Positions 7,328 through 16,737 of a DNA stretch of 16,953 nucleotides are shown piece after piece (the first letter of the stretch is position 1; every line of letters begins with the position of its first letter). The DNA lies in contig JABSRR010000140.1 in the NCBI GenBank assembly GCA_013215025.1, positions 4,121 through 21,073 on the forward strand. The letters are read 5' to 3'. A program made the translations under genes and the position numbers. A model generated the notes under the pieces. The model saw only the letters and a program-made list of their open reading frames with translations, did no database searches and had not been told where the DNA came from. The DNA comes from Pseudomonadales bacterium (GTDB lineage Bacteria; Pseudomonadota; Gammaproteobacteria; Pseudomonadales; DT-91).

Positions 7328-7671
7328 ACAGAGTAGAACAGATTGAAGAAAAGATCGTAAATCTCGAATGTAAGCGTAAAAAGCTTGTTGAAAAAGATGC
7401 TAAGATCGGAAAAGAGATCAGTGACTTACAGGAAGAAAAAGATAGTATTCTAGCTCTTGAAGTGCAGATGGAAGCTTTAAAAGAATCAGCTGAAAAATAT
7501 CTTATTGAATATTCGCTGGAAAGACATAATGTTTTTATTAACTCTGGTCCAGGTTTACGCATCAGTGTTATTTTTCACGACAGCACTGAAATGACTTTCG
7601 AAGGACATGACAGAATTGAAGTTCTTAAAAGGACTAATAATACTATCCATTTCTACGGACAGTTTCTGTAA
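7324..7671 (+). CDS. Small coiled-coil protein (115 aa)
   Basis: A 115-residue protein. Residues 1-60 form a clear charged heptad-like helix (IEEKIVNLECKRKKLVEKDAK and on), followed by a compact beta-rich C-terminus (LRISVIFHDSTEMTFEG). I do not recognise a family. The start is taken at 7324 rather than an upstream in-frame ATG (7291), because 7324 gives the ATGA overlap with the zinc-ribbon gene seen elsewhere in the window and the upstream stretch is coding in the other frame. It is the last gene before the first non-coding block, whose pseudoknot begins nine bases after the stop. Confidence 0.7.
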   Translation: MNRVEQIEEKIVNLECKRKKLVEKDAKIGKEISDLQEEKDSILALEVQMEALKESAEKYLIEYSLERHNVFINSGPGLRISVIFHDSTEMTFEGHDRIEVLKRTNNTIHFYGQFL

Positions 7672-7679
7672 AAGATATA

Positions 7680-7730
7680 CCATGACAAACAGCGTATAAG
7701 GGCTCCCCTAGTAGGTCATGGAATTAGGGG
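7680..7730 (+). ncRNA. Predicted H-type pseudoknot
   Basis: Two perfect helices cross each other. Stem 1 pairs CCATGAC (7680-7686) with GTCATGG (7715-7721), seven base pairs. Stem 2 pairs CCCCTA (7705-7710) with TAGGGG (7725-7730), six base pairs. Loops are 18, 4 and 3 bases, a workable H-type pseudoknot geometry. It lies just after the stop of the coiled-coil gene and 73 bases before the tRNA-like gene, so it may be a 3' end structure, a processing signal or the 5' domain of a larger RNA. Both helices are read directly; the fold is predicted. Confidence 0.5.
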
Positions 7731-7776
7731 ACGGGTCGTACATCCTTCACCTAGAATCAAAAGTACGGAGTTTTAG

Positions 7777-7797
7777 GACGGTTCTCTCAAAACCGTC
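7777..7797 (+). ncRNA. Perfect 7-bp hairpin with 7-base loop
   Basis: GACGGTT (7777-7783) and AACCGTC (7791-7797) pair fully around the loop CTCTCAA. The stem-loop size copies a tRNA anticodon arm, but no D arm or T arm is present at the right distance on either side. It stands six bases before the tRNA-like gene. There is no U-run after it, so it is not an intrinsic terminator. Confidence 0.55.
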
Positions 7798-7803
7798 AAC
7801 ACA

Positions 7804-7900
7804 GGAACAGTAGCTCAGTTGGTAGTAGCAACTCAAATAACTAATGTCGAGGGTAGTACCCTGTTAGAGTAGGTCGTGGGTTCGAGCCCCACCTGTTCAG
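7804..7900 (+). tRNA. tRNA-like gene with an enlarged anticodon arm
   Basis: Acceptor strands GAACAG (7805-7810) and CTGTTC (7893-7898) pair; the outermost pair would be a G7804/A7899 mismatch. U8-A9 and a D arm (GCTC-AGTTGGTAG-TAGC, 7813-7829) follow. The T arm is canonical: GTGGG, loop TTCGAGC, CCCAC (7876-7892), preceded by a standard variable loop AGGTC (7871-7875). Between the flanking strands ACTC (7831-7834) and GAGT (7867-7870) the normal seven-base loop is replaced by some 30 bases. These can fold as CTAATG/TGTTAG capped by GGGT-AGT-ACCC. No U33-anticodon-purine loop can be read, so I give no amino-acid identity. CCA is not encoded. It may be a degenerate tRNA, one with a small insertion or intron, or a tRNA mimic inside a larger RNA. 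It is 96-97 bases long against the usual 75-90. Confidence 0.5.
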
Positions 7901-7902
7901 TT

Positions 7903-8013
7903 TAGATCTCGGTGATAGTACCTTGCAAACCCCAATAAGGAATGCTCTCTTCTCTCTAGGTACGTGGTTAAAAGTACACCATCTTTAGGAGTCGTGTCCA
8001 CGAGATCTATTTT
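7903..8013 (+). ncRNA. Structured segment closed by a 9-bp perfect helix
   Basis: TAGATCTCG (7903-7911) is perfectly complementary to CGAGATCTA (8001-8009), closing about 90 bases. Inside, GTACC (7918-7922) can pair with a downstream GGTAC, and TCGTG/CACGA form an alternative small hairpin. Four T bases (8010-8013) follow the closing helix, so this could end a transcript containing the tRNA-like gene, although the long interior is unlike a simple terminator. It starts only three bases after the tRNA-like gene, arguing for one joint transcript. Confidence 0.4.
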
Positions 8014-8045
8014 ATAATAAATGTAGCCACTTAGTATTAAATGGT

Positions 8046-8056
8046 GACAATTTGTC
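8046..8056. promoter_or_regulatory. Short palindrome GACAATTTGTC, possible operator
   Basis: An 11-base perfect inverted repeat with a single central base, 37 bases ahead of the first gene of the small-gene cassette. It could be an operator half-site pair or chance in AT-rich sequence. The rest of 8014-8078 shows no gene and no convincing promoter. Confidence 0.2.
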
Positions 8057-8078
8057 TACAAACGTCAACCGATGTAGT

Positions 8079-8092
8079 AAAAGGAGAACAGT
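8079..8092 (+). promoter_or_regulatory. Ribosome binding site, copy 1 of a repeated module
   Basis: AAAAGGAGAACAGT directly precedes ATG 8093. The same 17 bases including the ATG recur identically at 8226-8242. Confidence 0.85.
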
Positions 8093-8227
8093 ATGAAATA
8101 TAATCCCTATGGAAGAGACATTTGGTTCGCTTGGTTCCCTATAAGAACTGCTAACGGAACTTTTGTTTGGTTAGATAAAGTTAAAAGGATTCGTAGTAAA
8201 TATGGAACTATTTATTGGGATATTTAA
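8093..8227 (+). CDS. Small hypothetical protein (44 aa)
   Basis: A 44-residue open frame beginning MKYNPYGRDIWF and ending TIYWDI. It is accepted because ATG 8093 has a strong AAGGAG with good spacing, and because exactly the same start module opens the next gene. The protein is rich in aromatic and basic residues (three Trp) and has no cysteine or membrane segment. I do not recognise it. It opens a run of six small genes after the tRNA-like block, the kind of position where phages carry accessory early genes that act on the host. Confidence 0.65.
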   Translation: MKYNPYGRDIWFAWFPIRTANGTFVWLDKVKRIRSKYGTIYWDI

Positions 8228-8239
8228 AAGGAGAACAGT
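8226..8239 (+). promoter_or_regulatory. Ribosome binding site, copy 2 of a repeated module
   Basis: AAAAGGAGAACAGT before ATG 8240 is identical to copy 1 and overlaps the stop codon (8225-8227) of the preceding gene. Confidence 0.85.
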
Positions 8240-8437
8240 ATGACTCCCGAACTAATGATAGTACTATCTGGTCTAGGCGTAATTTTTGGACTAGTCATAA
8301 TACTTTGTAAGATATTATTTCCTACTCCTACTACTTGGGAAATGCACGAACAGAACAAAAAAGTCACAGAAGAACTTGTAAAACAATCTGTTTACTCTTT
8401 TAAGAACTACAATCCAGATTTAGTAAAAGGAGGATAG
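8240..8437 (+). CDS. Small single-pass membrane protein (65 aa)
   Basis: A 65-residue protein with one strong hydrophobic helix at residues 4-28 (LMIVLSGLGVIFGLVIILCK), followed by a charged, likely cytoplasmic tail. The hydrophobic segment runs almost from the N-terminus and has no cleavage-site pattern, so a membrane anchor is more likely than a cleaved signal peptide. The start has the duplicated ribosome binding module. The stop (8435-8437) lies within the ribosome binding module of the next gene. Function is unknown; small inner-membrane proteins in phage early regions can modify host membrane functions, but nothing here shows which. Confidence 0.7.
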   Translation: MTPELMIVLSGLGVIFGLVIILCKILFPTPTTWEMHEQNKKVTEELVKQSVYSFKNYNPDLVKGG

Positions 8438-8438
8438 T
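8425..8438 (+). promoter_or_regulatory. Ribosome binding site, copy 3 (variant) of a repeated module
   Basis: AAAAGGAGGATAGT before ATG 8439 differs from copies 1 and 2 at two positions, giving a longer AAGGAGG match to the 16S rRNA tail. It lies inside the end of the preceding gene. Confidence 0.8.
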
Positions 8439-8810
8439 ATGAAACTTTGGAACAAATTGTTTGGGTATCCCAAAAGAGACCCAAAGCATATAACTATATT
8501 AAAAGGGATGACTAATAGTGTTCTTAATTTACATACTAAAGAACCTTATGGCATAGGTGACGATTTTGCTTTTGGAGTCCATATAGGATACCTCATAGAT
8601 CTTAAAGAAAAATACGACATAATGAAAGGTGATTGGCTTTTTATAAGGGGTATAAAGTATTACATCACTGAAATAAAGGGTACTCGTTTATACACTAAAA
8701 CAGCTCGTAGAGTAGATAATGAGATAACAGACTCTCTGGACAAAGTAGAATCTCCTATGGACTATTTTAAATGGACTCATATTCCAGAGGTAAAGTATGA
8801 CCCCTCGTAG
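8439..8810 (+). CDS. Hypothetical protein (123 aa)
   Basis: A 123-residue protein that I do not recognise. It is mixed alpha/beta by eye, with a basic N-terminus (MKLWNKLFGYPKRDPKH), a hydrophobic middle (GVHIGYLIDL) and a strand-rich region WLFIRGIKYYITEIKGTRLY at about 68-87, compatible with a small beta-barrel or SH3-like fold; that is only impression. The strong AAGGAGG site fixes the start. The 3' end overlaps the next gene by 14 bases. The gene uses many AT-rich codons (ata, tta, act) compared with the replication genes, which could reflect recent acquisition, but no formal test was possible. Confidence 0.75.
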   Translation: MKLWNKLFGYPKRDPKHITILKGMTNSVLNLHTKEPYGIGDDFAFGVHIGYLIDLKEKYDIMKGDWLFIRGIKYYITEIKGTRLYTKTARRVDNEITDSLDKVESPMDYFKWTHIPEVKYDPS

Positions 8811-8982
8811 ACTAGTTCACGAACTCCTTGACACATCGATGGAGTGGGAAGAAGCTTCAGCCGACCCTACTCGTAATTCAAAAGTGATCGTAAAGGTCGG
8901 TAACGAAGAATATCCACTCAAGGATGTATATTGGCGTGGTGATGATAAATTAGTAATGGAGGTACGTGATGAGAGTCAATAA
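8797..8982 (+). CDS. Small hypothetical protein (61 aa)
   Basis: A 61-residue acidic protein (KVIVKVGNEEYPLKDVYWRGDDKLVMEV forms a strand-rich second half). The start ATG is preceded by AGAGG with reasonable spacing inside the upstream gene, and both its ends overlap neighbours by exactly 14 bases. There is no membrane segment or cysteine motif. I do not recognise a family. Confidence comes from position, ribosome binding site and lack of any competing frame. Confidence 0.65.
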   Translation: MTPRRLVHELLDTSMEWEEASADPTRNSKVIVKVGNEEYPLKDVYWRGDDKLVMEVRDESQ

Positions 8983-9304
8983 AAAAGTGACTAAACCTGC
9001 TCTAGAAGAGCGAGTAGTCGAAGAGTACGACCACACTAAATGTGATCGTTGTGGTAAAGATGTCAACTGGCAGAAGGAAGGAGATAGTTGGTTTGACCAA
9101 GATACTAAGATACAAAGCTTCAGTGGAGACGTATTCCCCGAATGTGACAGTAGAGAGGGTTGGTCTATTGATTGTTGTCCTAAATGTTTTGAGGACGCTG
9201 TACTCCCTGCACTTAAGAAGGCAGGATTTAAGATCCCCGAAAAAAGAGATATATGGGACGATGAGCCCGAAGAACTTATTGATGAAACAAAGGAAAAGAA
9301 ATGA
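8969..9304 (+). CDS. Small zinc-binding protein with two CxxC pairs (111 aa)
   Basis: A 111-residue protein with CDRCGK near residue 25 and CCPKC near residue 70, the two knuckles of a probable zinc site, separated by an acidic, Trp-containing loop. The C-terminus is strongly acidic then basic (DDEPEELIDETKEKK). An upstream in-frame GTG at 8966 is possible, but ATG 8969 sits six bases after GGAGG (8958-8962) and is preferred. It overlaps the gene before by 14 bases and the gene after by four (ATGA). Such cytoplasmic zinc proteins with widely spaced CxxC pairs are common in phages and rarely characterised; no function is assigned. Confidence 0.72.
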   Translation: MRVNKKVTKPALEERVVEEYDHTKCDRCGKDVNWQKEGDSWFDQDTKIQSFSGDVFPECDSREGWSIDCCPKCFEDAVLPALKKAGFKIPEKRDIWDDEPEELIDETKEKK

Positions 9305-9780
9305 AAGAAGAACTACTCGCAGCAATTGATTCAAATCTCCCAAGTATGGTAGGTGACGCACTCAAGAAAAGACTCGAACAAGGTGATAAAGCTGAAAAAG
9401 ATCTTGAGAAAAAGATAAAATCATATGATACTCTAACCAGAGATTACAATCTGATCATGAAGGATCTACGTGAAGAAAAAGATAAAAACAGATCACTTCA
9501 AGCAAGTAACGAACATCTTGAAAATATGCTTAACATCAGAGCACCTAAGCTCGAATTCCGTGAAGCTGTTGTTGAAGTTAAAGAACAACATGCAAAAGAG
9601 AAAGTTGATCTCATGAAAGAATGTTTCGGTATGGTTTTCCGTAATACAGTTGTGAAGAAAGATGTCCTCTCAAAAGCTCCAAGCTTTGTTCAAGAGCACT
9701 ATAGTAGTTCTGGCCATAATATTCCTGTGTCTGTTGATGGTGGAGAATTTAAGGACACCTTGATCACAGAAGAAACTTAA
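9301..9780 (+). CDS. Coiled-coil protein (159 aa)
   Basis: A 159-residue protein. Residues 20-75 are a charged heptad-like helix (DALKKRLEQGDKAEKDLEKK and on), probably a dimeric coiled coil; 76-120 is a second helical region (KEQHAKEKVDLMKECFGMVF); the last 30 residues look flexible and acidic. It starts in an ATGA overlap, with AAAGGAAAAG upstream. It is the last gene of the small-gene cassette, and the second non-coding block begins at its stop. I do not recognise a family; a structural or adaptor role is guesswork. Confidence 0.7.
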   Translation: MKEELLAAIDSNLPSMVGDALKKRLEQGDKAEKDLEKKIKSYDTLTRDYNLIMKDLREEKDKNRSLQASNEHLENMLNIRAPKLEFREAVVEVKEQHAKEKVDLMKECFGMVFRNTVVKKDVLSKAPSFVQEHYSSSGHNIPVSVDGGEFKDTLITEET

Positions 9781-9783
9781 TAC

Positions 9784-9843
9784 GCCCGTGACCTCTTGAG
9801 TGTAAAGGACTGCATTCCTGCGTCCCTCTACGTCACGGCTTTT
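9784..9843 (+). terminator. Long hairpin with T-run after the small-gene cassette
   Basis: GCCCGTGAC (9784-9792, one bulged C) pairs with GTCACGGC (9832-9839) and is followed by four T bases (9840-9843). Within it GGAC/GTCC and GCA/TGC form a second stem. It begins three bases after the stop of the coiled-coil gene, so it may end that transcript. The roughly 40-base interior is larger than in a simple intrinsic terminator, so it may instead be the first helix of the structured RNA that follows. Confidence 0.4.
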
Positions 9844-9911
9844 AAAAACAGATCCACTGCCCTCTCAAGGAAGTTGTAGCTTGCTCGTCCTTCAGACGTA
9901 CGGATCTATAT

Positions 9912-10008
9912 AAAGTCAAGCGCAATAGTTAGCGTGGTTTCCTTAGTCGCTTCCTAGTAGACCATCGAAAGACTACTAGTGGAATAATCCCACGTTAGCC
10001 GCCTCTGC
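9912..10008 (+). repeat. Structural module, copy 1 (AAAGTCAAGCG ... CGCCTCTGC)
   Basis: AAAGTCAAGCG (9912-9922) and CGCCTCTGC (10000-10008) bracket a long hairpin; the GCG (9920-9922) and CGC (10000-10002) ends can pair. Copy 2 follows after one base. Confidence 0.7.
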
Positions 10009-10009
10009 G

Positions 10010-10054
10010 AAAGTCAAGCGTACCAGTCTATGTTCCGACATAGAACGCCTCTGC
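10010..10054 (+). repeat. Structural module, copy 2 (AAAGTCAAGCG ... CGCCTCTGC)
   Basis: The same 11-base and 9-base sequences (10010-10020 and 10046-10054) bracket a shorter hairpin (10027-10044). GCGT (10018-10021) pairs with ACGC (10045-10048). The bracketed sequence is unrelated to that of copy 1, so the conserved parts are the flanks. Confidence 0.7.
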
Positions 10055-10060
10055 AAAACA

Positions 10061-10102
10061 ACGAGAGGAAAACTCGTAAAACTCCAAGATGTATTTTCCT
10101 CT
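10061..10102 (+). ncRNA. Hairpin whose loop matches a downstream segment (pseudoknot or switch)
   Basis: ACGAG (10061-10065) and CTCGT (10073-10077) enclose the loop AGGAAAA. That loop and two stem bases, AGAGGAAAA (10064-10072), are perfectly complementary to TTTTCCTCT (10094-10102). Loop pairing alone gives seven pairs and an H-type pseudoknot; full pairing would require opening the hairpin. Confidence 0.45.
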
Positions 10103-10243
10103 GAGCCGTCGTTATGAGGTTATCACGGATTGCATTGATAGGTAAGTGGTCGTGTACTACCTAGCTGATGTACAAGGTAAAAAGGGCGACACAACCCAAC
10201 ACAAGATAACACTAGTCAATGTCGATGATGTTGGAACCCTCAC

Positions 10244-10284
10244 GCACAGTCCGGAAACGGTGGGCCAAAGCTGTGCATTCTTTT
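10244..10284 (+). terminator. Hairpin with GNRA-capped inner stem and T-rich tail
   Basis: GCACAG/CTGTGC closes an arm that holds CCG-GAAA-CGG, and ATTCTTTT (10277-10284) follows. It may terminate the structured RNA; the tail is not a pure U-run and the arm is long, so termination is only possible. The next gene starts 24 bases later. Confidence 0.35.
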
Positions 10285-10307
10285 CAATTTAAAAAGGATG
10301 AAGAACA

Positions 10308-10550
10308 ATGGATATTCTAAGTCACTTAGATCCAGAAACAACAATTAACATGAAAGCTGGAGATCTAAAGGTAATTATATCTAAGACTAAAGCTGATGCA
10401 AAAGATAAATATGCCGAACTACTTGACCTGTGTATGATAGATATTAACCACCGTGAGGAAATCTCAGTATGTGCCAGAATACAATTATTCATGGAAGGCG
10501 ATGACAGATTCAGAAACCACAAACCAGAACAAATTTTAAGGCTGCGATAA
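10308..10550 (+). CDS. Small hypothetical protein (80 aa)
   Basis: An 80-residue protein, mainly helical by eye (TKADAKDKYAELLDLCMIDI, then REEISVCARIQLFMEGDD), that I do not recognise. AAGGA at 10294-10298 with nine bases of spacing supports ATG 10308, the first gene after the structured non-coding block. It ends in a one-base overlap (TAATG) with the following coiled-coil gene. No motif, membrane segment or signal peptide is visible. Confidence 0.68.
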   Translation: MDILSHLDPETTINMKAGDLKVIISKTKADAKDKYAELLDLCMIDINHREEISVCARIQLFMEGDDRFRNHKPEQILRLR

Positions 10551-11401
10551 TGAACGGAACAGAAGTAAAATTTCACCAAGAAGGAGATAGGCACTACGCT
10601 ACCTTCGAAACACCTCAACCACATGTTACAGACGACATCATGGATGAGTTCAACAAAAACTATTTAGAACATTTGAAAGGCGTTGAACAAACTGCCCAAG
10701 TTCAAATGTTGGCCAAACAAGCAAAGCAGATAAAGATTCTCCAGAACCAAGTGATCGGATTTAAGAAAGACCGAGATCATTGGAAAGAGGGGTACAAAGT
10801 CTTATTGAACTCAAACAATAAGCTCAAAGAAGAACGAACCCTGGCCATTAAGTTCGGTGGGTATTCAGAACAAGTTTTTACGGAGCTACAAGAAACGATC
10901 CAAGAAAAAGATGCGATCATTAAAAGTTTCGAAGAGGCTCCAGCAGCTCCAGATAATGACATTGCTGATCTAGCAGTAGCATTCGATAAGGAGCTCAAGG
11001 CAAGAGCTGAACGTAATGTAGAGCTTAAGAAAACCATTGAAGAACGTGATGAAACTATTCAATCTCACAAAGCTAACTATGCTTTTGTCCAGGAAGAAAA
11101 CAAAGCCCTCAAAGGTCGCATAGAAGTTCAGAAAGGCACGATCTCCGAACAGAACAAAGAGCTTGTTAAGGCTGAGAAAGAGTATAAAGAACTCAGTCTA
11201 GTAAAAGACCATATTGTTGGGGTTTCTAAACGTGAACTCAAATCTCTTAACGAAAAGTATAAAGCTCTAAACAATAGGCACGATGCTTTAATGGAACGAG
11301 TTACCGAAGCTGTTTCATTATCACAAACACCAAGTCCAATTTGTATTCAAGGACATGTACACATGGGGGGTCAAAATCATTATACAGGGAAACCAAAATG
11401 A
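10550..11401 (+). CDS. Long coiled-coil protein (283 aa)
   Basis: A 283-residue protein made mostly of charged heptad-type helix: about residues 45-115 (MLAKQAKQIKILQNQVIGFK and on) and 135-250 (KELKARAERNVELKKTIEER and on), broken by a short Ala/Pro/Asp-rich hinge near 125. The N-terminal 30 residues form a separate small segment and the C-terminus (QGHVHMGGQNHYTGKPK) is short, His/Gly-rich and uncoiled. Coiled-coil proteins in phage early regions can be scaffolds or SMC-like helpers, but no ATPase or other domain is present. Starts in a TAATG overlap and ends in an ATGA overlap, so it is translationally linked on both sides. Confidence 0.75.
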   Translation: MNGTEVKFHQEGDRHYATFETPQPHVTDDIMDEFNKNYLEHLKGVEQTAQVQMLAKQAKQIKILQNQVIGFKKDRDHWKEGYKVLLNSNNKLKEERTLAIKFGGYSEQVFTELQETIQEKDAIIKSFEEAPAAPDNDIADLAVAFDKELKARAERNVELKKTIEERDETIQSHKANYAFVQEENKALKGRIEVQKGTISEQNKELVKAEKEYKELSLVKDHIVGVSKRELKSLNEKYKALNNRHDALMERVTEAVSLSQTPSPICIQGHVHMGGQNHYTGKPK

Positions 11402-15156: not shown

Positions 15157-16737
15157 ATGGCACACAAAGATAAGCCTCATTGGAGGCAAATAATCGAAGG
15201 TTTTAAAGAAGCTGGCTCTATTTCTGCCTATGCTCGTGCCATAGGTAAGAAGAGGCGTATTGTTTCTTACTGGTACCACGAAGCTCTTATGGAGCAAGAT
15301 AAAGAAAAACTACGTGAAGCACTCGGTCATTATGAAAGAAAGACTTTTGTGATCACATCTGCTCAAATTGGAACTAAGGTTCATGAAGGTTTCCTTCGTA
15401 ACTTAGAAGCTTTTGCAGAGGCACACAATGCGGAGATCATGATCCCAGGCATTACTTATAATACCAATGACTCAGAGTGGGCTGGTGGTTTAGGGGATGC
15501 TCAAAAGAAAGTTCAAGCTTGTTATTATGATCGTAAGATACAAAGGTATCTAGTGAACGATCGTGTAGCATTGAACAATAAGGTCGAAGTGCTCGGTAAT
15601 TTAAATATTTTACCAACAGCTGTAAATCCTTTATCCGGTTACCAAACATTTACTGGTGAAAAATCAGCGATCATTCCTCACCCAAAAGTAGCACAAGAGC
15701 CGGTACCTACTCGTCCAGGTAAGCTTGCAAAGCATATCATGACTACTGGTTCTATTACTGAAGCAAACTTCATTCAAAAGAACGCTGGTATCAAAGGTGA
15801 ATTTCATCATCAAATTGGTGCAGTAGTAGTGGAGGTAGTTAATGGTAAACAGTTTCACACCAGACACATTTTGGCAGAACGCTGTGGAGCGTTCTACGAC
15901 CTCACAGATCGATATGAGCACGGCATGTGTACAACTGGTCACAGAGTAGACGCTATTACATGGGGTGATATTCATCATGCAACCCTCAACAAAGAAGTCG
16001 CAGAAGCCAACTGGTTCGGAGAAAAGAACCTTATCGATACTCTAAAACCTCGTTATCAATTCTTCCATGATACATTGGACTTTAAAGTTCGTAATCATCA
16101 CAATCGTGACGACAAATTGTTCATGAAGAAGATGAGTGGAGAATCAGTTAAGAAAGAAGTAAATGATGCTTGTAAGTTCTTAAATAGCACTAAAAGAGCT
16201 TGGTGCCAAAGTGTAGTGGTTAAGTCTAATCACGATAACGCATATGATCGTTGGGCTCGTGAGACAACTCATCACGAAGAACCCGACATTGACAATGCGA
16301 TCTATTTGTTAGAATCTCAGATTCGTCAGCACAAGGACATGAAGAACTGTGGTGAGACAAGAGATCTTTTCGCTTGGCGTTACATGGGTAACTACTTCGA
16401 TAGTTCTGTTAAGTTCCTTAAACAAGATGAGTCATTTACTGTAAACGGTATCGAGTGTGGTATGCACGGAGATGTAGGTCTAAATGGTGCTCGCGCTACT
16501 CCTAAATCTTTTATGAAGATTGGTATCAAAGTAAACTCTGGCCATACTCACTCAGCTGCCATTAATGAGGGTGTTTATACTGCTGGATGTTGCTGTGATC
16601 TCGAACAAGGTTACAATAAAGGCCCCAGTTCTTGGAGCCATTCTCAGATCGTTCAGTACGCTAATGGTACGAGAACTATTCTTACATGTATCAATGGCGA
16701 ATATTATGATCGCCCATTTCCAAAGGCTAGAGTATGA
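15157..16737 (+). CDS. Large calcineurin-like metallophosphoesterase with N-terminal HTH, T5 A1-like
   Basis: A 526-residue protein. The C-terminal half has the metallophosphoesterase set in order: GDIHH (270-274, Asp271/His273), HDTLD (304-308), SNHD (357-360), MHGD (436-439, His437) and GHTH (462-465), the residues that hold two metals in phosphodiesterases such as Mre11/SbcD-type nucleases. Residues 8-45 (GSISAYARAIGKKRRIVSYW) resemble a helix-turn-helix. A segment near 65-100 (FVITSAQIGTKVHEGFLRNL) has the look of a phosphoesterase first strand but lacks Asp-x-His. Layout and the SNHD/GHTH signatures recall the A1 family of phage T5, linked to host DNA breakdown and DNA transfer; that family link is from memory and not certain. 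AAGGAG at 15146-15151 fixes the start. The segment CCCDLEQGYNKG (478-489) adds three adjacent cysteines. The stop overlaps the next start (ATGA). Confidence 0.78.
   Translation: MAHKDKPHWRQIIEGFKEAGSISAYARAIGKKRRIVSYWYHEALMEQDKEKLREALGHYERKTFVITSAQIGTKVHEGFLRNLEAFAEAHNAEIMIPGITYNTNDSEWAGGLGDAQKKVQACYYDRKIQRYLVNDRVALNNKVEVLGNLNILPTAVNPLSGYQTFTGEKSAIIPHPKVAQEPVPTRPGKLAKHIMTTGSITEANFIQKNAGIKGEFHHQIGAVVVEVVNGKQFHTRHILAERCGAFYDLTDRYEHGMCTTGHRVDAITWGDIHHATLNKEVAEANWFGEKNLIDTLKPRYQFFHDTLDFKVRNHHNRDDKLFMKKMSGESVKKEVNDACKFLNSTKRAWCQSVVVKSNHDNAYDRWARETTHHEEPDIDNAIYLLESQIRQHKDMKNCGETRDLFAWRYMGNYFDSSVKFLKQDESFTVNGIECGMHGDVGLNGARATPKSFMKIGIKVNSGHTHSAAINEGVYTAGCCCDLEQGYNKGPSSWSHSQIVQYANGTRTILTCINGEYYDRPFPKARV

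Follow-up and report, generated by a model that had tools for sequence, protein, structure and literature searches.

A non-coding orphan stretch in a phage-like contig, and a split RNA family of phages that resembles the GTPase-associated centre of 23S rRNA

Introduction

What might a stretch of 527 bases that holds no gene contribute to a phage-like genome? The question is raised by a contig of 21,073 bases, of which positions 4121-21073 were analyzed (16,953 nucleotides, hereafter the window). The genes of the window are phage-like and include a T5 A1-type 'DNA transfer protein', a family A DNA polymerase, a helicase, and an exonuclease. An earlier note on this DNA had proposed that the gene-free stretch, here called block A, is a candidate large phage RNA.

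Results

Block A is non-coding

Block A (9781-10307) lies between two + strand genes, one ending at 9780 and the other starting at 10308, and these neighbors suggest that block A itself is read on the + strand; the polymerase gene is found about 1.5 kb downstream. Stops interrupt every frame, and the codon log-odds were below zero in all frames and all 150-base slices examined. The best open reading frame (10146-10292, 48 aa) reached a log-odds of -0.05, compared to +0.15 to +0.41 for the small genes of the window, and family and homologue searches found neither a family nor a homologue for it. Since the codon log-odds are negative and the sole sizeable reading frame is unsupported, we rejected a coding or pseudogene reading. 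The 527 gene-free bases claimed in the earlier note were thus borne out. Its description of the surroundings as otherwise packed with abutting genes was not, since a second non-coding block, block B, occupies 7672-8092 (+ strand). Block B harbors a tRNA-like element (7804-7900, + strand; RF00005, 34.7 bits), 1.9 kb upstream of block A, in which 32 bases lie between the anticodon stem strands, compared to 9 in the model; ARAGORN does not call this element. The G+C content of block A is 46.1%, against a window mean of 40.6%, which places it in the top 2.3% when every stretch of this length in the window is ranked. Its interior lacks promoter-like sites and has no terminator-like site on the + strand; the only one found there (10061-10077) is on the - strand.

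The hairpins of block A are slightly above chance

We then listed the helices and repeats of block A on the + strand. In a single-sequence fold, CGCCC (9783-9787) and GGGCG (10184-10188) pair with a mean probability of 0.88 and could form a closing helix over 9783-10188. The stem search returned a 7-bp stem, CCGTGAC/GTCACGG (9786-9838), and a 9-bp stem, AGAGGAAAA/TTTTCCTCT (10064-10102), the latter also found in the repeat search. Stem search and fold agreed on the remaining helices, namely, AGATCC/GGATCT with an inner AAGGA/TCCTT (9850-9907), a 7-bp hairpin, CTAGTAG/CTACTAG, tipped by GAAA beyond an ACCA bulge (9954-9979), a 10-bp helix around this hairpin, GTTAGCGTGG/CCACGTTAGC, which includes two G-U pairs (9928-9999), a 7-bp hairpin capped by UCCG, TCTATGT-TCCG-ACATAGA (10027-10044), and a 6-bp stem, GCACAG/CTGTGC, with an inner CCG-GAAA-CGG (10244-10276). 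Two regions picked after the fact, 9784-9840 and 9925-10002, gave folding z values of -2.8 and -2.4, respectively. The repeat search showed two modules within 9912-10058, each in two copies: AAAGTCAAGCG at 9912 and 10010 and CGCCTCTGC(G/A)AAA at 10000 and 10046. The UCCG-capped stem, the GNRA-capped stem (two GAAA-tipped candidates, at 9954-9979 and within 10244-10276), and the repeated modules that had been pointed out beforehand are therefore all present.

How far these features exceed chance is a separate matter. When loops were limited to 40 bases, block A contained 4 perfect stems of 7 bp or more, versus 0.84 expected, a count reached in 6 of 300 shuffles; when loops of up to 60 bases were allowed, 10 of 300 shuffles reached the count of block A. 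At this latter limit, 6 such stems occur in each of three further segments of 527 bases in the window, whose first bases are 6576, 6839, and 10258 (the third segment shares 50 bases with block A). A UNCG or GNRA hairpin of at least 7 bp, a feature picked after the fact, was produced by 32 of 2,000 shuffles. The many perfect inverted repeats that had been claimed are thus real as stems, but their excess over shuffles is slight and three window segments hold more, while the suggested pseudoknots were inseparable from chance. Overall, block A is only mildly unusual in structure.

The inverted repeats, together with the location upstream of the polymerase gene, would also suit an element acting at the DNA level ahead of the DNA polymerase genes, such as a replication origin, a packaging region, or a promoter region. 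However, the repeats occur in two copies only and form no iteron array, the G+C content lies above that of the surroundings rather than below it, and promoter-like sites in 7500-10600 are not in excess (6 versus 7.3 expected), and we consider such an element quite unlikely. At its downstream end, block A adjoins the ribosome-binding region of the gene at 10308 (AAAAAGGATGAAGAACA before the ATG), and the fold puts ATTCTTTT/AAAAGGAT across this region with a probability of 0.58, as might be the case if block A were a long mRNA leader with structure, or a processing region, controlling this gene. Against this, a 527-base leader would be a long one, and the downstream gene, of 80 aa, fits no known family and matched only itself in homologue searches; the leader reading thus appears improbable to us.

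Folding energy does not decide the case

The folding energy of the whole of block A was ordinary (z -0.57, with 33 of 100 shuffles as low), and the reverse strand folded better (z -2.08). The note had named a folding energy no better than that of shuffled sequence as grounds for refutation, and such an energy is what we found, but the test proved invalid when applied to other RNAs. A genuine ROOL RNA, from plasmid pMP118, gave a z of +0.15 and no stem excess, the RNA of locus L007 described below, which is supported by covariation, gave -1.03, and the tRNA-like element at 7804-7900 gave -0.37. Values of -1.4 to -2.6 were obtained for four coding segments of the window. Because the true ROOL, the L007 RNA, and the tRNA-like element fail to stand out, the energy test is uninformative, and we discarded it as a criterion. 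It follows from the ROOL comparison that neither energy nor stem counts support or refute a large RNA in block A. More generally, the case of block A illustrates that folding energy cannot decide what an orphan non-coding stretch is, since a real ROOL does no better.

No relative of block A was found

We searched for relatives of block A in several collections. No relative turned up when 50,697 phage records were searched with blastn (E up to 1, then up to 10); the seven matches obtained at the wider limit all had E values of 2 or worse and coincided with genes or fell in a record without annotation. There was none either among 72,556 plasmids, nor in three IMG/VR pattern scans, whose only two matches (L016 and L019) lie in DNA of coding type and were regarded as chance, nor among the fetched loci and 39 other comparable gap stretches. 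An Rfam scan up to E 5 returned a single chance match (E 4.1), and no family fits. Alignments to E. coli 16S and 23S rRNA scored 14 and 16, versus 14.6 and 15.2 for shuffles, and we rejected an imitation of rRNA by block A as these values are no better than those of shuffles. Two further likenesses of block A were dismissed: that of CCGGAAACGGT...GGCC-AAA (10251-10269) to the Milchi RNA described below was equaled by 47 of 150 shuffles, and an alignment to the UNO RNA (score 15, 5 of 150 shuffles) was one among 21 comparisons of block A. Block A is therefore an orphan, with no homologue found in phages, plasmids, IMG/VR, or comparable gaps.

Such a result could be expected if block A were a relic, that is, the degenerate and now functionless remains of a tRNA array, an intron, or a gene. 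The lack of detected conservation, the ordinary folding energy, and the abnormal build of the neighboring tRNA-like element are all in line with this possibility. Nevertheless, a search of block A for a cloverleaf whose T arm adjoins the acceptor strand gave no candidate, and ARAGORN and Rfam were also negative for a tRNA or tRNA array; there is no coding trace, and the stem excess, slight as it is, would not be anticipated for a relic. In addition, useless DNA tends to be lost from phage genomes. We hence regard a relic as unlikely.

The same interval in a relative holds tRNAs and a non-coding RNA

Relatives of the contig were sought through its polymerase. The protein database contained 16 homologues, including the polymerase itself, the nearest being 76 and 62% identical. 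Searches in 95, 390, 369, and 398 genomes (overlapping sets) returned, at the cut-offs used, only the genome itself besides G031, which has one weak local match to the polymerase, and a polymerase-alignment search of genome contigs gave no relative. IMG/VR yielded L007 (IMGVR_UViG_3300021425_000063), the closest readable relative, with a polymerase 55% identical, six more distant loci, and a weak partial match, L002. No comparable gap was seen upstream of the polymerase in the six distant loci, of which L010 and L012 extend upstream for only about 0.9 kb and L013 for 2.3 kb; queries with the helicase and with 9301-9780 gave no additional contig. The T5 A1 DNA-transfer homologue lies at 15157-16737 (phrog_1745, E 6e-157), close to the polymerase gene, and its best listed phage matches are 37 to 43% identical.

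In L007, a 1,493-base gap separates helicase and polymerase, the same interval as in the window. It contains a tRNA found by Rfam and not called by ARAGORN, in which 82 bases replace the 13 of the model (L007:4472-4614), a cloverleaf candidate above shuffles (L007:4619-4686), a 151-nt RNA (L007:4991-5141), and a tRNA-Ile (L007:5522-5593). tRNA-like genes with about 20 to 70 extra bases in the anticodon or variable region were observed at four places, namely, 7804-7900 of the window, L007:4472-4614, L007:5632-5787 (read by eye only), and L022:5357-5473, the last scoring 49.2 bits in Rfam and missing from the annotation of its record.

Gaps of at least 300 bases without genes are themselves common in such contigs: we counted 55 in 44 sources (420,636 bases, including some duplicate contigs). 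Many gaps of 300 to 834 bases without an ORF of at least 60 aa or an ARAGORN tRNA were seen in L036-L077, a set of IMG/VR loci described below; example regions are L048:11524-13115, L064:11575-12408, and L068:6021-6784. Some of these gaps have short similar pieces in common, and they are possibly further unnamed RNAs or odd tRNAs.

A split GAC RNA family in phages

Used as a query, the L007 gap matched unannotated DNA in unrelated phages. The shared piece resembles the H43 arm of the GTPase-associated centre (GAC) of 23S rRNA: in Aeromonas phage 4_4572, it is 94% identical over 34 bases to E. coli 23S 1055-1088. The H43 half corresponds to 23S 1051-1093. The H44 arm, which ends at the equivalent of C1104, was found 41 to 378 bases beyond the H43 hairpin in 34 distinct cases, whereas only 14 bases lie between H43 and H44 in E. 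coli 23S. The flanks of the phage RNAs pair with each other as a single closing helix whose register is that of H42.

This split GAC element is carried by 14 fetched records of named phages: Pseudomonas phages pf16, UNO-G1W1, Astolliot, and Milchi; Xanthomonas phages XacN1 and XbC2; Cronobacter GAP32, Pectobacterium CBB, Serratia BF, and Erwinia SNUABM_12 and Kaldavass; and Acinetobacter ME3, Aeromonas 4_4572, and Vibrio 2.275.O. In these records, it lies between annotated genes or, in Milchi, Kaldavass, and UNO-G1W1, over short hypothetical ORFs only. A fifteenth record, Paenibacillus Pd_22F, was rejected as an ordinary 23S-like sequence, and many further matches, which are either rRNA, whether annotated or evident, or close copies of the named phages, were left outside the 14. 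An IMG/VR pattern scan gave 42 loci, which include the contig of L007 itself (L051), a contig of 234,900 bases that matches ME3 in length and sequence (L056), and several near-identical contigs. None of the 42 has an adjacent rRNA H44, 37 have a distant H44-like half, and 26 have an ARAGORN tRNA within 2 kb. The loci thus collected are L007:4991-5141, L021-L026, L028-L035, and L036-L077. In Astolliot (L026:851-1380) and Milchi (L033:850-1373), two tandem GAC-like copies, the first strongly diverged, precede a tRNA-Met gene.

Covariation was examined in both parts of the element. Among 35 chosen distinct H43 sequences (34 from phages plus E. coli 23S), pair 1058:1080 is A-U in 12, G-C in 12, and U-A in 11 and is never broken. 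It is the sole covarying H43 pair, four others being invariant, one broken once, and 1065:1073 broken in 8 of 35; the upper-stem pairs are uninformative because the search pattern largely fixed them. Overall, 96.3% of the H43 cells are paired, compared to 24 to 72% after sliding by 1 to 3 columns. For the closing helix, 57 stretches were examined and 34 distinct ones with both halves and flanks were kept, the others lacking the second half, being cut short, or being duplicates. In these 34, the H44 pair is C:G in 20, U:A in 13, and U:G in 1, and closing-helix pairs 3 to 6 are formed in 108 of 136 cells, compared to 28 to 48 when shifted by 1 or 2. The helix is not a perfect copy of H42, as pair 4 is formed in only 19 of 34, and neither the Vibrio element (VIB) nor L046 has a convincing closing helix.

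Three GAC loci gave no family in Rfam 15 at E 0.05, and the L007 locus gave only a sub-threshold match to DUF805b (18.6 bits versus a gathering score of 35.6). In the literature searched, we found no paper on such RNAs. The split GAC RNA is thus a family absent from Rfam 15, as tested with four loci, and from this literature. Since the L11-binding domain is rebuilt, the RNA would probably act as a decoy for L11 or translation factors, or as a site where these dock.

Block A does not belong to the split GAC family

With a model of the H43 half, the best match in block A scored 3.6 bits over 14 bases, compared to 61.7 bits for L007 and 53.7 bits for E. coli 23S, both of which were among the training rows (L007's contig as L051). 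Ungapped matching gave 18 of 38 positions for the H43 half and 11 of 21 for the H44 half (GYGTNNNARCACAC), versus means of 18.1 for shuffles and 11.7 for the null, respectively. In a geometry search, no place in block A had more than 3 of the 10 conserved H43 letters, and neither an H44 pattern nor a closing helix was retrieved. Both halves being no better than chance, block A is not a member of the family, with the proviso that a strongly diverged copy could be missed by such matching, as the first copies of Astolliot and Milchi score only 19 to 21 of 38.

In block B, a weak H43-like hairpin sits inside the helix AGATCTCG/CGAGATCT (7904-8013). The H43-like place itself (7955-7994, 6.6 bits, E 4.2 over the window) was not accepted as a GAC RNA because of its weak score and the missing H44 half; 7904-8013 might represent a GAC RNA relative that has degenerated.

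Discussion

Our preferred reading, in which we have about as much confidence as doubt, is that block A is a non-coding part of the tRNA/ncRNA island in an undescribed phage lineage, and that its most likely product is one structured RNA, or a few, that would act through folding rather than as a message. Block A would be transcribed from the + strand along with the neighboring replication genes. The likeliest target of its RNA may be the translation apparatus, because the equivalent island of L007 holds tRNAs together with a GTPase-associated-centre RNA. Transcription, this target, and the existence of a single folded molecule are inferred. Of the large phage RNA first proposed, the non-coding block in a phage-like tRNA/ncRNA neighborhood (the 7804-7900 element in the window and the tRNAs and RNA of L007) has held up; a single folded RNA is still a candidate, no homologue having been found. 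For the present, block A is a further addition to the orphan non-coding stretches of phages. The larger gain, and what we value most among the results, comes from the split GAC family: phages of several genera, including the nearest readable relative of this contig, rebuild the L11-binding GTPase centre of 23S rRNA.

Among known RNAs, ROOL and GOLLD are described in PMC12286853 as occurring in phages, often near tRNA islands. The ROOL RNA of pMP118 (543 nt) is in the same size class as block A, is likewise non-coding, and has an equally ordinary folding energy. Nevertheless, the ROOL model (RF03087) gave no match in block A up to E 5 and nothing reaching its gathering score, while the positive control, pMP118, scored 130.4 bits, and the direct alignment of block A to ROOL was not clearly above shuffles (16 versus 13.6 ± 1.7, 22 of 150). 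The GOLLD model (RF02032) gave no match at Rfam sensitivity, in a comparison where no GOLLD positive control rang. The earlier note, which could place block A in neither family, was right to flag it without naming one. Phages ICP1 and K have orphan long non-coding transcripts that are abundantly transcribed and that the authors, in PMC7567579 and PMC9241854, liken to GOLLD and ROOL in length, location, or expression. Block A resembles them as a long orphan phage stretch whose transcription is predicted. By analogy with the GAC RNA, block A might even belong to an undescribed class of phage 'translation-island' RNAs, as a second RNA next to the split GAC RNA, and bind or imitate part of the host translation machinery, a suggestion to which we give little credence. 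The split GAC RNAs are, as block A would be, non-coding phage RNAs of a few hundred nucleotides, and in L007 the GAC RNA occupies the same gene interval.
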